A stretch of DNA of 64,000 nucleotides, taken from the NCBI GenBank assembly GCA_902810695.1, contig CADDYV010000015.1, forward strand, positions 1 to 64,000. The letters run 5' to 3'. Each line of letters begins with the position of its first letter. Positions within the stretch are counted from its first letter, which is position 1. Positions 31,494 through 35,221 of the stretch are shown here, one piece after another. Source of the DNA: Actinomycetota bacterium (lineage in GTDB: Bacteria; Actinomycetota; Rubrobacteria; Rubrobacterales; Rubrobacteraceae). The notes under the pieces were generated by a model. That model did no database searches. It was not told the DNA's origin and worked only from the letters and a program-made list of their open reading frames with translations. The translations under genes and the position numbers were made by a program.

Positions 31494-31763
31494 TCAGGCG
31501 TCGAGCACCACGTCAGAGAGTGGGCTGCCGATGCAGATGAGACGGTAGCCTTTCTCCAGCTCTTCGTCGGAGATGGCGAAAGCCAGATCTTGATCCACCT
31601 CTCCTTCGAGGCACATCTGCATGCAGGTGGTGCAGGTCCCGCTGCGGCAGTCGTAGGGGAGGTTCAGACCCGCCGCCTCGGCTTCTTCGAGGATGTACTC
31701 GTCCTCGGAGCACTCGATGGTTACACCGCTTTTTTTGAAAGTTACTTTGTGGGTTTTGGCCAT
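31494..31763 (-). CDS. 2Fe-2S ferredoxin, plant type
   Basis: An 89-residue beta-grasp electron carrier with cluster ligands Cys39, Cys44, Cys47 (DCRSGTCTTC) and Cys77 (LICIGSP), the spacing of plant-type [2Fe-2S] ferredoxins. It follows the Usp/PCP_red/rubredoxin fusion on the same strand after an inverted repeat, and probably serves as its electron partner, which is an inference. No Shine-Dalgarno is seen before the ATG, where the inverted repeat lies. Confidence 0.92.
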   Translation of the reverse strand: MAKTHKVTFKKSGVTIECSEDEYILEEAEAAGLNLPYDCRSGTCTTCMQMCLEGEVDQDLAFAISDEELEKGYRLICIGSPLSDVVLDA

Positions 31764-31769
31764 CAGCGA

Positions 31770-31814
31770 TCAGCTATCAGCCGTCAGCTTTGCCATTCTC
31801 CGGCTGATAGCTGA
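31770..31814. repeat. Inverted repeat between the Usp fusion and ferredoxin genes
   Basis: TCAGCTATCAGCCG (31770-31783) is perfectly repeated inverted as CGGCTGATAGCTGA (31801-31814), with extra copies of ATCAGC and GCTGAT on the flanks allowing alternative pairings. The hairpin starts seven bases before the ferredoxin ATG. It may be a transcript-processing or attenuation signal within the operon, or a REP-like element. Confidence 0.7.
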
Positions 31815-31832
31815 CGGCTGATACCTAAGTGC

Positions 31833-34139
31833 TCAAAGTTCCTTTGCTTCGAAGTCTTCGGGTGGTGCTCCGCAGACGGGGCATTCCTCGGGCGGAGCGG
31901 TGCCTTCGAGCTCCTCGCCGCAGACGGTGCAGACCATAATTACGGTCGCTACCGGATGCGGGGCGCCACCATCCGGGGATTCGATCTTCTCGCCGGTATC
32001 TCTGGCGAGGTCGGCGATGGAGATCTTGCCCGTGATCACGTCCTCCATCGTGTTGCGCGCGCCCGCGAGCGAGTCCTCGACCAGCGCGAGGTCTATCTGC
32101 TCGACGCCGCGCTCGCGCGCGAGCTTCTCGGTCATGTTGCGCGAGATGTTGCGCATGAACCCCTTGGGCGCACGCTCCAGGCGCTCGATGGCGTCATCGG
32201 TCCAGGTGAACTCCTTCGAGCCGCCCTCGGGGATCTTCGCGCCGACCTCTTTGAACGCCTTGTGGTCTATCGGGCACTTGCCGCCGCTCTCGCTTTCGAC
32301 CTTCTCCTTAGCGTGGCTTACGGGACAGCCACCTGACTTCACCTCTGGAGCCTCGCGGCCCGTCTCCTCGCGGTAGCACTGCTCGGCGTACTCGCGGGTT
32401 ACGGTGGTGTAGCCCTTCTTGAGCGCGCTCTTCTCCACCCTGGCCTTGACCCGGCGCTGCTCCTGCCACTCCTCTAAAGAGTCGAGGAAGGCTTTGGCGT
32501 CGTCGGTCCAGTGCAGCTCGCGCCCGTCGTAGACGCCGGAGCGGTTGAGGTTCTCGTCCTCGGAGACCTGCGTGATATCGGTGTCCACCGGGTGGAAGTG
32601 CGTCGGGCCAGCGCCGCAGACCGGGCAACGGGCGGGCATGCCCTTCGCCACGTAGCGGCAGTTGTCGCACTCGTAGCGGTCCTTGCCCTGGGCGGCGCGC
32701 CGGATCTCCTGCTGCACCTCCTCGGAGACGCCGATGATGTTGCCCTGGAACTCCGACTTGCCGAAGCCGCCCGCGCCGGAGGAGATGATCTCCTCCTTCT
32801 CCGAGCCGTTCTTCTTGTGGCCGTTGCCGCCCGAGGAGCCCTTCTTGCTCCGCTCGTCGAAGTCCTGGAAGAGAGAGTCTATCGGGGCCTCCTCGCCCGC
32901 GGCCTCGTTCTCGCGGATCTGGTCCCCGATGGCGTGCATGCTCTCCATCGCGCCGGGGGGCAGGATGTTCTCGATCACCTCGTCAATTACGCCCGCCGTA
33001 ATGACCGTGTAGCCCTTCTCGATGGCGTAGCGCAGGATGGCTCCCGTCGCCATCCCGACCACGAAGCCCGGAACCCGGTCCATCCGGGCGAGTGCCTCCT
33101 TGGTCCAGGTCATGTGCTCGGCGGCGGTGTAGAGGTCCGGGGCCTGGTACTCGTAGTTGCCGACCAGCACGTTCGTCGGCAGGTAGCGCATCATGTTCTC
33201 CGAGTTGGAGCCGATGTCCATGTCCTCGTCGGAGTGGTAGCCGATGCGCCCCATCACCACGAGCGTCGGATTTACTTCCTTGATGTACTTCAAAGTCTGC
33301 TCGAAGGGCTTTCCGGCGAGCAGGGTTGTCTTGAGGTCCACTCCCTCGTCGGCGGCAATCTTCCTGGCGACCTCCAGGTGGGCCGTGTAGATCTTGGCGA
33401 GCCCGGAGTCTATGATCTCCTCATGCAGCTTCTCCTGCTCCTTGAAGCGGAAGACCTTCTGCGCCTTGGTTGACAATACGCCCGCTATGGAGTGGAACAT
33501 CGCGTAGTGGAAGTACGGGTCGAAGACGCTTATCGCCTCGACCGTCCCGCCGAACTCGCGCGCGAGATCTATCGCCCTCTTGAGCCCGCCGAGCGACTTG
33601 GCGCTCCCGTCAACCGTGACGACGATGTGCTCGAAGGGGTTGCGGTCCAGGTCCTTGACGATCAGGCAGTCGGCCTTCTTGAGCCGCCTGACGACCCGCT
33701 CGGTAACAGAGCCGAGCACGGTGTCCTTGACGGCGGCCATGCCCATCGCGCCCATCACCACCAGGTCATAGTCCCCGGCGTTGACGTCCTCGGCGATGAC
33801 CTTGAAGTTCTTACCTTCGAGCGAGCGGCGGACCAGCTCGACGCCGTACTTCTCGCAGAGGGGCTCCAGCACGTCAATGTAGGAGTCGGTGATGATCTCC
33901 AGCCCCTTGGTGATGAGCTGGTCGTGGATCTTGCGCTGACGCTTCATCTCGTCCTCGTCGCGGAACTCTTCGGGGAGCCCGCTCTCCATCTGCCGGAAGC
34001 GTACGTCGTGCATCCTCGCGGCGTAGGCGTGGCAGCCGGCTACCTTCCCGCCGAACCTGCGCGCCACCTCGGCCCCGATGACGCACGCCTGGTTGGAGTA
34101 GTCCGAGTTGTCTACTGGGACGTAGATCTCTTTGTACAT
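31833..34139 (-). CDS. Tandem UspA - PCP_red - rubredoxin fusion protein
   Basis: This is a 768-residue soluble multidomain protein. Two UspA domains (about 1-163 and 170-327) carry the nucleotide-binding end motifs VVMGAMGMAAVKDTVLGSV and VVMGRIG. Three copies of a PCP_red-like helical module follow, each starting WTxxA: about 344-395, 543-590 and 645-700. Rubredoxin-like CxxC pairs are at Cys491/494 with 505/508 and at Cys737/740 with 753/756. Two CPxxH motifs occur at 605 and 622. The linker 430-465 is Gly/Lys-rich. PCP_red is named from the protochlorophyllide reductase B subunit C-terminus. With the neighbouring ferredoxin and divergent di-iron protein, a redox or gas-stress role is inferred. 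Confidence 0.85.
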   Translation of the reverse strand: MYKEIYVPVDNSDYSNQACVIGAEVARRFGGKVAGCHAYAARMHDVRFRQMESGLPEEFRDEDEMKRQRKIHDQLITKGLEIITDSYIDVLEPLCEKYGVELVRRSLEGKNFKVIAEDVNAGDYDLVVMGAMGMAAVKDTVLGSVTERVVRRLKKADCLIVKDLDRNPFEHIVVTVDGSAKSLGGLKRAIDLAREFGGTVEAISVFDPYFHYAMFHSIAGVLSTKAQKVFRFKEQEKLHEEIIDSGLAKIYTAHLEVARKIAADEGVDLKTTLLAGKPFEQTLKYIKEVNPTLVVMGRIGYHSDEDMDIGSNSENMMRYLPTNVLVGNYEYQAPDLYTAAEHMTWTKEALARMDRVPGFVVGMATGAILRYAIEKGYTVITAGVIDEVIENILPPGAMESMHAIGDQIRENEAAGEEAPIDSLFQDFDERSKKGSSGGNGHKKNGSEKEEIISSGAGGFGKSEFQGNIIGVSEEVQQEIRRAAQGKDRYECDNCRYVAKGMPARCPVCGAGPTHFHPVDTDITQVSEDENLNRSGVYDGRELHWTDDAKAFLDSLEEWQEQRRVKARVEKSALKKGYTTVTREYAEQCYREETGREAPEVKSGGCPVSHAKEKVESESGGKCPIDHKAFKEVGAKIPEGGSKEFTWTDDAIERLERAPKGFMRNISRNMTEKLARERGVEQIDLALVEDSLAGARNTMEDVITGKISIADLARDTGEKIESPDGGAPHPVATVIMVCTVCGEELEGTAPPEECPVCGAPPEDFEAKEL

Positions 34140-34483
34140 AAAACCCCTGCTCCCTAGCTTTCCAGGACGCTAAAGCTACTGTTCGCCGTCATTGCAGAAG
34201 ACTTTCTCAACCACCTGCGTAATCTACTCTCTGCTTCGTTATACCGCAAATAAAAGGATTCACACGAATCGTGCATTACATACGGTGATTTCGAAGTCTC
34301 CCCGGGAATGAGGGGTTAGACCCCTCCCGGGTTCCGCGCAGGGCGTCAGGGAAGAATCAAATGAGCGTTTTCACGGTCTCTCCGTTTGGCTGCGGGAGAA
34401 AATCACCCAAATGGGTGATGTGTCCTGATGTCCCCGGATGACATAATTCGTCATGACGAAGGGTTTGCGAAAGGAGGCACGTG
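34140..34483. promoter_or_regulatory. Divergent control region with palindromes
   Basis: The spacer between the Usp fusion and the di-iron protein holds three dyads. ATCACCCAAATGGGTGAT (34402-34419) is a perfect 8-base inverted repeat around AA, in layout like LuxR/NarL-family or DevR-like sites. ATGACATAATTCGTCAT (34438-34454) has perfect 5-base arms. A strong hairpin, CCCGGG-AATG-AGGGGT with ACCCCT-CCCGGG, lies at about 34301-34332. A strong ribosome site (AAAGGAGG, 34470-34477) serves the di-iron gene. Co-regulation of both directions is likely. Confidence 0.65.
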
Positions 34484-35221
34484 ATGGCACGGGTTGACGA
34501 GGTGGCTGCTGGGATCTACCGGATCTGCACCACCGTGCAGTTGGGGGAAGAAGCGTTCCAGTTCAACCAGTTCTTGATCGACGATGAACGCCCCGCCCTG
34601 GTTCACACCGGCATGTTCCCGATGTACGATGACGTGCGTAAAGCCGTGGCCGAAGTCCTTGACCCCAAACGCCTCGCGTACGTCGTCTGCCCGCACTTCG
34701 AGGCGGACGAGTGCGGCGGCATGGGACGTTTCGTCGAGGAAGCACCCGAGGCGGTTTTGGCGTGTAGCGAAGCAGGAGCGTTCCTCAACCTGATGCAGTG
34801 GGACTACACCGGTCCCGTGCAGGGCTTCAAGGACGGCGAGAGTATAGACCTCGGGGAGCACAGGCTGCGCTTCATCGAAACCCCTCACGTCCACCACTGG
34901 GACTCGATGATGGTCTTCGAGGAGACGACAGGCAGCCTCTTTCCTGCGGATCTCTATATGCAGTGGGGAGATCAGCCACCGATCGTGCGCGAGAACCTGG
35001 GCGGGGAGATGTGCCAGGGCTACCGTGAAGTCGGCATTTTCGCCGCCGAAGAACCCGTGCGTAGGGTCGTGGACCGCCTCGAAAAACTCGACCCTCGATG
35101 GATTCATCCGATGCACGGGGGGAGCCTGTCTAAAGAGGTGGTGCCCGACTACACCCGTGCGCTCAGAGAAGAGGAGTTCGCCTTCGAAGGAAAGATATTC
35201 GGACGCGCGATCCCCGACTGA
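34484..35221 (+). CDS. Metallo-beta-lactamase-fold di-iron protein (ODP/flavodiiron-like)
   Basis: A 245-residue stand-alone version of the di-iron domain of flavodiiron proteins. Ligands match: His71, Glu73, Asp75 (HFEADECGG), a His in THVHH-type segment PHVHHWDS near 135-138, Asp156 and His208 or His211 (IHPMHGG). The Glu76 in place of a second His follows the oxygen-binding di-iron protein (ODP) subgroup. It probably binds or reduces O2 or NO, with electrons from rubredoxin or ferredoxin, both encoded divergently. The start at 34484 was chosen because AAAGGAGG is six bases upstream; a GTG precedes it directly. Confidence 0.87.
   Translation: MARVDEVAAGIYRICTTVQLGEEAFQFNQFLIDDERPALVHTGMFPMYDDVRKAVAEVLDPKRLAYVVCPHFEADECGGMGRFVEEAPEAVLACSEAGAFLNLMQWDYTGPVQGFKDGESIDLGEHRLRFIETPHVHHWDSMMVFEETTGSLFPADLYMQWGDQPPIVRENLGGEMCQGYREVGIFAAEEPVRRVVDRLEKLDPRWIHPMHGGSLSKEVVPDYTRALREEEFAFEGKIFGRAIPD

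Follow-up and report, generated by a model that had tools for sequence, protein, structure and literature searches.

A UspA-PCP_red-rubredoxin fusion of Rubrobacteraceae belongs to a multi-phylum tandem Usp family co-inherited with bd-like complexes

The fusion protein and its locus

The window analyzed here is a 64,000-nucleotide stretch of DNA from a member of the Rubrobacteraceae (assembly GCA_902810695.1, contig CADDYV010000015.1, positions 1 to 64,000), in which a single gene encodes a 768-amino-acid protein that joins Usp, PCP_red, and rubredoxin-like modules. A 2Fe-2S ferredoxin gene follows it, and a gene for an ODP-family di-iron protein is divergent from it (Table 1). An initial annotation, made from the sequence alone, had read these genes as a complete electron path from ferredoxin or rubredoxin to a di-iron O2/nitric oxide (NO) site, coupled to nucleotide sensing by UspA. 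We find that the fusion is the Rubrobacteraceae version of a widespread, multi-phylum tandem Usp family (kustd1706 type), and that this family is tied to bd-like oxidase complexes.

Pfam searches bore out the modules listed initially. The protein matches Usp (PF00582) in two stretches (E = 5.1e-37, 128 bits against a cut-off of 24), PCP_red (PF08369) in three (E = 9.4e-29), and RUBY_RBDX in two (E = 3.2e-13), the latter two also over their curated cut-offs. Support for the middle PCP_red copy is weak, with three stretches found at E ≤ 1 but two at E ≤ 0.01. A whole-genome scan listed the first and third copies, both above the cut-off, and not the middle one, though in several relatives this copy reaches E-values of 6e-8 to 8e-4. 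Both four-Cys knots are complete, and all eight cysteines are invariant in 16/16 aligned Rubrobacteraceae sequences. The two CPxxH motifs of the initial annotation are likewise present, motif 2 being kept in all 16 sequences and motif 1 keeping its C and P in 16 and its H in 14. Both Usp domains also carry a nucleotide-type motif (ATP-type G-x2-G-x9-G), with a variable residue after the third glycine in domain 2.

The predicted structure of the fusion (mean pLDDT of 72, with low quality in the linkers and in some of the Usp2 insert) resembles the tandem Usps Rv2623 (3CIS) and ATP-bound TTHA0350 (3AB8), at 16 to 18% identity in structural alignment. The tandem Usp fold and the ATP-type motifs are common to the fusion, Rv2623, TTHA0350, and UspE; to our knowledge, none of these three has PCP_red or rubredoxin. 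PCP_red is shared with the C-terminal domain of subunit B (BchB) of the light-independent protochlorophyllide reductase (DPOR), and with the single-domain entries 2KRU and Asr4154 (2L09), and the profile matches BchB C-termini in solved DPOR structures. Unlike BchB, the fusion has no nitrogenase-like catalytic part, and its PCP_red modules are repeated and joined to Usp; against the full-length BchB model it scores 55 bits, below the cut-off of 509, with its best stretch at amino acids 331 to 387. The four-Cys knot is shared with the rubredoxin domain of rubrerythrin (1NNQ, 3MPS), but a ferritin-like di-iron domain is missing from the Pfam matches of the fusion, and its scores against the rubrerythrin and rubredoxin equivalogs (22.6 bits versus 200 and 9.8 versus 90) fall short of both cut-offs.

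The 89-amino-acid open reading frame (ORF) downstream is a ferredoxin, as annotated (Fer2 in Pfam; fdx_plant, TIGR02008, 81.8 against a cut-off of 81.15). Nineteen Rubrobacteraceae loci extend past the 3' end of the fusion: 18 have a ferredoxin gene on the same strand after 73 to 148 bases, and one has it at a distance of 4.2 kb. The contig of a 20th locus stops inside the fusion. The divergent 246-amino-acid ORF is also of the type named initially (PF19583 ODP, 71 bits against a cut-off of 27.2). Its sequence has an HxExD motif and, further along, an H, a D, and another H, as do di-iron ODPs; we take these residues to be the ligands. Pfam found no flavodoxin domain in it. No ODP homologue was found in any of 20 related Rubrobacteraceae loci, 16 of which reach at least 1.5 kb upstream of the fusion, nor in any of 57 loci from outside Rubrobacteraceae, within the reach of those loci; over the same stretches, no ferredoxin match adjoins the gene. 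Of the two neighbors, then, the ferredoxin is conserved, but only in Rubrobacteraceae, and the di-iron gene is not; we rejected the ODP protein as a partner because it is absent from all 16 related loci reaching upstream.

The initial annotation had also placed a palindrome-rich promoter between the two divergent genes. Seven perfect inverted repeats (arm of at least 6, loop of up to 8, overlaps included) do occur within 350 bases upstream of the fusion, against a shuffle mean of 0.9, and the upstream regions of 2 of 14 relatives hold six, of different sequence. The palindromes noted initially sit on the ODP side, however, and the longest, ATCACCCAAATGGGTGAT, occurs in none of the 14 other Rubrobacteraceae upstream regions, so we rejected them as a promoter shared with the fusion. 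A relaxed pattern located an element near TGTGAA-N3-TTTTATTTGC in 15/15 upstream regions, 114 to 169 bases before the fusion start codon, followed in most of them by a TAnATT-type hexamer. Its exact form occurs once in the window on scanning both strands. One candidate role for this element is that of a sigma-70-like promoter combined with an operator for some regulator.

Table 1. Positions of the fusion, its modules, and the flanking features in the window
Feature	Position	Strand	Basis
UspA-PCP_red-rubredoxin fusion, 768 aa, order Usp-Usp-PCP_red-rubredoxin-PCP_red-PCP_red-rubredoxin	31833..34139	-	ORF and Pfam
Usp domain 1 (aa 1-162), G130-x2-G133-x9-G143, His 37, 44, 72	33654..34139	-	Pfam and alignment
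Usp domain 2 (about aa 168-330), G297-x2-G300-x9-G310, FRFKEQEKLHEE, His 211, 239, 254	33150..33638	-	Alignment
PCP_red module 1 (aa 345-387)	32979..33107	-	48.8 bits, over cut-off
Rubredoxin-like knot 1 (Cys 491, 494, 505, 508)	32604..32678	-	Pfam and alignment
PCP_red module 2, degenerate (about aa 544-586; approximate borders)	32382..32510	-	Weak third Pfam stretch
CPxxH motif 1 (CPVSH)	32313..32327	-	Sequence
CPxxH motif 2 (CPIDH)	32262..32276	-	Sequence and alignment
PCP_red module 3	32073..32204	-	48.3 bits, over cut-off
Rubredoxin-like knot 2 (Cys 737, 740, 753, 756; aa 736-764)	31848..31934	-	Pfam and alignment
Plant-type 2Fe-2S ferredoxin, 89 aa	31494..31763	-	Pfam and NCBIfam
Conserved upstream element, about TGTGAA-N3-TTTTATTTGC	34246..34264	-	Relaxed pattern, 15/15 Rubrobacteraceae upstream regions
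Putative -10-like hexamer TAGATT, after the conserved element	34221..34226	-	
ODP-family di-iron protein, 246 aa, divergent from fusion	34481..35221	+	Pfam
Palindrome ATCACCCAAATGGGTGAT, ODP side	34402..34419	.	Not in relatives
Palindrome TTCGTCATGACGAA, ODP side	34447..34460	.	Inverted-repeat search

A tandem Usp family with a histidine signature

Within its own family of bacteria, the fusion was found in 23 of 25 Rubrobacteraceae genomes (that of the window included), in some as contig-end fragments, and the best piece in each of the others is 76 to 91% identical to the protein of the window. Across all 17 sequences compared, 78% of positions in Usp1 and 74% in Usp2 are identical; linkers and knots vary more. 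Among 296 Actinomycetota genomes, PCP_red was detected in 27 Rubrobacteraceae and in three others, which have single modules in frames of 294 to 509 amino acids. The fusion, counted as at least two PCP_red modules per frame, is present in 25 of these 27 Rubrobacteraceae, and none of the 269 other Actinomycetota shows more than one module.

To look beyond this group, we searched the 84,980 species of genome_contigs with two short patterns, one of them FKEQEKLH and the other a neighbor of it; of 376 matches, 324 were confirmed as relatives. We kept the best 80 of the 324 confirmed stretches: 23 labeled Rubrobacter, Rubrobacteraceae, or Actinobacteria/Actinomycetota, and 57 with other labels (Nitrospirota and subgroups, Methylomirabilota, Nitrospinota, Planctomycetota, Acidobacteria, and Betaproteobacteria), which are the loci used for the CPxxH, ODP, ferredoxin, and radical-SAM counts outside Rubrobacteraceae. 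The 49 complete members from outside Rubrobacteraceae that we aligned are 39 to 48% identical to the protein of the window. A scan of viral contigs returned no relative, and a plasmid search returned 76 records, none covering 80% of the query; the 20 listed are haloarchaeal Usps at 26 to 29% identity.

Usp and PCP_red are present in all 63 members scanned, and a rubredoxin-like match in 60. The number of rubredoxin modules varies, from one knot in a Nitrospirota form (L123) to at least two in a Manganitrophus form (L135), with no CxxC pair in L140, L146, L161, or the anammox-type forms described below; knot 2 was found in 20 of the 63 aligned rows. CPxxH occurs in 2 of the 57 proteins from outside Rubrobacteraceae, and we rejected it as a family-wide heme motif on that count. 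By contrast with these variable parts, His 37, 44, 72, 211, 239, and 254 and the six Usp glycines are invariant in 63/63 aligned members. In the structure model, H37 lies at a strand end, and H44, H72, H211, H239, and H254 lie in long helices of both Usp domains. We tabulated 25 further members from 26 loci, leaving out L227, a partly masked fragment in which three of the six histidines are visible. H37, H44, H72, H211, and H239 are kept wherever covered, and Y, V, or I takes the place of H254 in seven; of the 24 that cover the sites, all have five of the histidines and 17 have all six. The two generic tandem Usps used as controls largely lack this set, keeping 2 and 1 of the six. The constant part of the family is therefore the histidine-signature tandem Usp core, and the PCP_red, rubredoxin, and CPxxH parts vary.

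A positional relative of this family has already been annotated. In Candidatus Kuenenia stuttgartiensis, the published description of the nxr cluster, as far as its passages on kustd1700-1712 go, gives the order nxrA, nxrB, c556, uspA, genes for mono-, tetra-, di-, mono-, and diheme proteins, and a cydA-like gene (PMC6423088). This order equals that of our loci L242 and L249 and, apart from c556, that of L240 and L241; we call these four loci anammox-type on the basis of this match in gene order. Their Usp gene, which lies between bd-like/cytochrome c genes and a second set of genes, is a family member by alignment and, for L240, by Pfam, which makes kustd1706, the "uspA" of that cluster, a relative by gene order, the comparison being one of position and not of its own sequence. 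In L240, genes of the second set match models for a type-II dimethyl sulfoxide (DMSO)-reductase beta subunit and chaperone, under the cut-off. The anammox-type forms have 414 to 448 amino acids and no rubredoxin knots, in contrast to the 768-amino-acid Rubrobacter protein.

Co-inheritance and clustering with bd-like genes

By bd-like we mean complexes with short CydA-related subunits, as distinct from canonical bd oxidases; one profile of this type was searched. As far as the relevant passages of the sources go, such complexes have been proposed as terminal oxidases or quinone-linked complexes in Nitrospira and relatives, and the function of the Nitrospina/anammox protein is called enigmatic (PMC6606698, PMC3578206). 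The same kind of passages describe the Nitrospira genomes analyzed by 2019 as lacking canonical heme-copper oxidases, report a cbb3-type oxidase in N. marina, and count four bd-like oxidases in N. moscoviensis (some clustered with complex III) and seven in N. marina (PMC6606698, PMC8115632). The bd-like oxidases of Nitrospira, Nitrospina, and anammox bacteria would be the partner complex of the family discussed here; by sequence, the fusion is not a subunit. Rubrobacteria are described, in the part of the source concerned, as lacking cytochrome c oxidase and depending on bd oxidase (PMC7901476).

In addition to canonical CydA, Rubrobacteraceae encode tandem proteins of ~450 amino acids with a match pattern similar to that of the short CydA-like proteins of L140 and L146, and the short CydA-like pairs of Rubrobacter and Nitrospirota match one profile. 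Among the 296 Actinomycetota, bd-like genes were detected in 26 of the 27 Rubrobacteraceae at 88 to 750 bits (two of the 26, at 88 and 109 bits, as fragments only), and the best score in the other 269 is 68.5 bits. Fusion and bd-like genes occur together in 24 of the 27. In Nitrospirota (245 genomes), 105 have both, 132 neither, three the family only (G333, G339, and G554), and five bd-like genes only (G356, G443, G491, G512, and G556). Family carriers among the Nitrospirota were picked out manually at two score levels (97 strong, 11 of intermediate score), G356 (two family pieces of 88 bits each) being scored as family negative and weak bd-like matches (E of 1e-25 to 1e-50, in G333, G364, G421, and G498) scored as negative; with the strong set only, the counts are 95 with both, 2 with the family only, 15 with bd-like genes only, and 133 with neither. 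In Planctomycetota (343 genomes), 26 have both, 315 neither, G867 the family only, and G814 bd-like genes only. Among 32 fusion carriers drawn from the 57 distant loci and searched as whole genomes, 30 have bd-like matches of at least 178 bits, G320 has one of 70 bits, and G302 has none.

Gene order points the same way. In 21 of the 26 planctomycetotal pairs, the two genes share contig and strand, 4.7 to 8.5 kb apart, with the bd-like gene upstream in all 21. Further linked loci are L140, L146, L212, L213, and L224, a short CydA-like protein lying on the same strand near the family gene in L140 and L146, and the linked, same-strand loci span four Nitrospirota loci and a Betaproteobacterium-labeled contig. 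The co-inheritance is thus positive in three phyla and backed by clustering. In L212, a 749-amino-acid protein that matches cytochrome c in three stretches and also has a domain like that of ethylbenzene dehydrogenase (L212:5628-7877) is encoded between the bd-like/cytochrome c and Usp genes. In three Rubrobacter loci (L174, L175, and L178), the bd-like pair flanks a Rieske-like gene and two cytochrome-b-like pieces, and in L174 the Rieske-like and cytochrome-b-like genes all score under the NCBIfam equivalog cut-offs. The arrangement in L174:7721-12566 and L175:5939-10693, two short CydA-like genes around a Rieske-like and a split cytochrome-b-like gene, possibly encodes a complex III/bd-like supercomplex; the L175 set adjoins molybdopterin oxidoreductase genes that look formate-dehydrogenase-like by eye.

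The second recurrent neighbor is a radical-SAM/SPASM-type protein, encoded directly 3' of the family gene in 38 of the 49 non-Rubrobacteraceae loci with at least 400 bases of downstream room. NirJ2 and AhbD act in heme d1 and heme b synthesis, respectively. The radical-SAM proteins of L123, L140, and L146 have NirJ2, AhbD, and TIGR04053 as their best models, all under the equivalog cut-offs, and those of L123 and L146, both scanned by Pfam, bear a PCP_red of their own. The 11 loci outside the count of 38 are L105, L106, L107, L108, L145, L146, L148, L149, L150, L159, and L161. Among them, L146 also has a radical-SAM gene, its ORF having an extended start; L105, L108, and L150 have an Mrp-like ATPase and a small PCP_red protein in its place; L145, L148, L149, and L159 have a CopD-like membrane protein alone; and L106, L107, and L161 have none of these neighbor types. 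A relative of protoporphyrinogen oxidase follows in L146 (TIGR00562, over the cut-off) and, by similarity, in L212, L214, and L222. In parts of the family, the gene is therefore clustered with bd-like, cytochrome c, radical-SAM, and protoporphyrinogen-oxidase-like genes.

Two side observations concern PCP_red at these loci. An Mrp/ApbC-like ATPase and a small protein with a C-terminal PCP_red are encoded near the family gene in L105 (L105:3391-4838), L108, L146, and L150 (by Pfam in L105 and L146), and a 328-amino-acid Manganitrophus-labeled protein with four PCP_red stretches (L135:9568-10554) adjoins a radical-SAM protein. The CopD-like neighbors in Nitrospirota hint at copper, but they resemble CopD weakly (28.7 bits against 195).

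Possible roles of the fusion protein

We tentatively favor, at somewhat less than even chances, the reading that the fusion is a histidine-signature tandem Usp that serves bd-like complexes, likely as a cytoplasmic, ATP-binding cofactor-handling (heme or metal) or assembly factor. That the protein binds ATP, which cofactor it holds, and that it acts in maturation and not in regulation are inferences. The tandem Usp core would bind nucleotide and the conserved histidines would hold metal or heme, with ATP gating the holding; the PCP_red and rubredoxin modules may help to receive, hold, transfer, or reduce the cofactor, or may dock a partner, which would be the NirJ2/AhbD-like radical-SAM protein in most other loci and the ferredoxin in Rubrobacter. 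In DPOR, the C-terminal region of BchB lies near the substrate pocket, and for this reason a tetrapyrrole role would suit the PCP_red modules. With the radical-SAM partner missing from Rubrobacteraceae and from the anammox-type loci, the role may instead lie in metal handling or regulation.

Several observations weigh against this reading. Ten genomes of Nitrospirota and Planctomycetota break the co-inheritance, as do, among Rubrobacteraceae, G005 (98% complete) and G284, with bd-like genes and no fusion, and G274, with the fusion and no bd-like gene. The counts ignore shared ancestry, Fisher values calculated for Nitrospirota and Planctomycetota are for that reason given no weight, and the generic tandem Usp controls for the histidine signature number only two. 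In the genome of the window itself, which has two bd-like loci of 750 and 729 bits, these lie on contigs C38 and C47 and so do not adjoin the fusion, which is on C15. A divergent 355-amino-acid member (L224) has no PCP_red match in Pfam, so PCP_red cannot be an essential part. The radical-SAM/PCP_red partner is missing in Rubrobacteraceae, where the best NirJ2 match reaches 162 bits against a cut-off of 500, and is absent around the Usp gene in the four anammox-type loci examined; the link to heme is consequently not universal.

A broader version, which we consider doubtful, is that the family forms the core of an undescribed, dedicated maturation system for the bd-like cofactor, be it a modified tetrapyrrole or a heme/copper site. 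The histidine signature would have turned a tandem Usp into an ATP-gated heme/metal chaperone, and PCP_red would be common to the chaperone, the radical-SAM enzyme, and small accessory proteins, in a system spanning nitrite oxidizers, anammox-type bacteria, Methylomirabilota, and Rubrobacteraceae.

ATP/ADP sensing has been proposed for Rv2623-type proteins, and the fusion could likewise be an energy/redox sensor, in which the tandem Usp reads ATP/ADP and the knots read redox state, adjusting bd-like flow or expression with no cofactor handled. The tandem Usp fold with its ATP motifs and the conserved upstream element in Rubrobacteraceae agree with this, as do four UspA proteins, of this family or another, that, in the part of the source concerned, rise at low O2 beside induced operons in Nitrospira marina (PMC8115632). 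Such a sensor leaves the conserved histidines, which the two generic tandem Usp controls largely lack, unexplained, together with PCP_red and the radical-SAM and protoporphyrinogen-oxidase-like neighbors, and we think it rather unlikely.

The two complete four-Cys knots and the adjacent ferredoxin of Rubrobacteraceae would fit a soluble electron carrier or reductase that takes electrons from ferredoxin and hands them on, by way of its rubredoxin knots, to an acceptor in the cytoplasm or membrane. We judge this improbable: anammox-type and several other members without rubredoxin modules still track bd-like genes, knot 2 is confined to a minority of members, no ferredoxin match adjoins the gene in the distant loci as far as these reach, and Zn is as conceivable in the knots as Fe. 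The link to bd-like complexes might also be indirect, both genes being lithotrophy markers spread by common ancestry or transfer. The clade-structured distribution in Actinomycetota and the neglect of phylogeny in our counts leave room for this, but same-strand clustering in Planctomycetota, in four Nitrospirota loci, and on the Betaproteobacterium-labeled contig, and co-occurrence in Rubrobacteraceae, far from the other carrier lineages, argue against it and make it a poor candidate. Least probable by far is the O2/NO stress cluster of the initial annotation, in which fusion and ferredoxin feed the ODP di-iron protein; the adjacency in the window and the domains are correct, but the ODP gene is absent from the related loci reaching upstream and from the distant ones, and the palindromes are not conserved. 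The initial interpretation is thus supported in part, its O2/NO path is unlikely, and the fusion is more likely a helper of the bd-like complex than part of an O2/NO stress pathway.

Nitrospira and relatives play a central part in the nitrogen cycle. A soluble partner that is inherited with their bd-like complexes, is often encoded near them, and bears a ligand-binding-like signature offers a testable handle on these complexes. Rubrobacter, an aerobe outside the nitrifiers, is linked to this machinery as well and could serve to study how the complexes obtain their cofactors. The family signature, the bd-like tie, and the PCP_red-sharing gene set are new in that none was found described in the literature searched; the constituent domains, and the positional relative annotated uspA, were already known. 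Searches of open-licence literature, with incomplete coverage, found nothing on the combination of Usp, PCP_red, and rubredoxin, in keeping with the initial statement that no characterized system has it, to which we add that an uncharacterized positional relative, kustd1706, exists. Searches on PCP_red listed unrelated papers, and one of the papers listed for PF08369 and its synonyms is a trait survey that names the profile once. Nor did searches there on the nxr cluster together with a stress protein and Kuenenia, or on bd-like genes with radical SAM, list any paper, and no description of how bd-like complexes acquire their cofactors was found in literature searches and in passages of the papers cited.

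A link to protochlorophyllide reductase was rejected as a general explanation, with no search for DPOR made in the other lineages; Rubrobacter itself does have a BchB-like gene. A 2016 study by Gupta and Khadka reportedly deals with Rubrobacter DPOR proteins. In passages of a separate source, the B and N subunits are reported as the sole bacteriochlorophyll genes of Rubrobacter (PMC7901476). In Rubrobacteraceae, PCP_red is confined to the fusion, BchB-size frames, and short ORFs. The BchB-like gene of the window's genome (L001:91-1641, G000:C45) scores 436 bits against the NF002789 cut-off of 509, its neighbors being nucleoside-metabolism-like by eye, and PCP_red matches in long frames suggest BchB-like genes in other Rubrobacteraceae. 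A stand-alone PCP_red protein of ~87 amino acids (L002:1402-1665 / L177:6314-6577, G000:C48) follows a 120-amino-acid ORF without an NCBIfam match, and many Rubrobacteraceae have similar short PCP_red ORFs, which two of the genomes carry some 2 kb away from the fusion.

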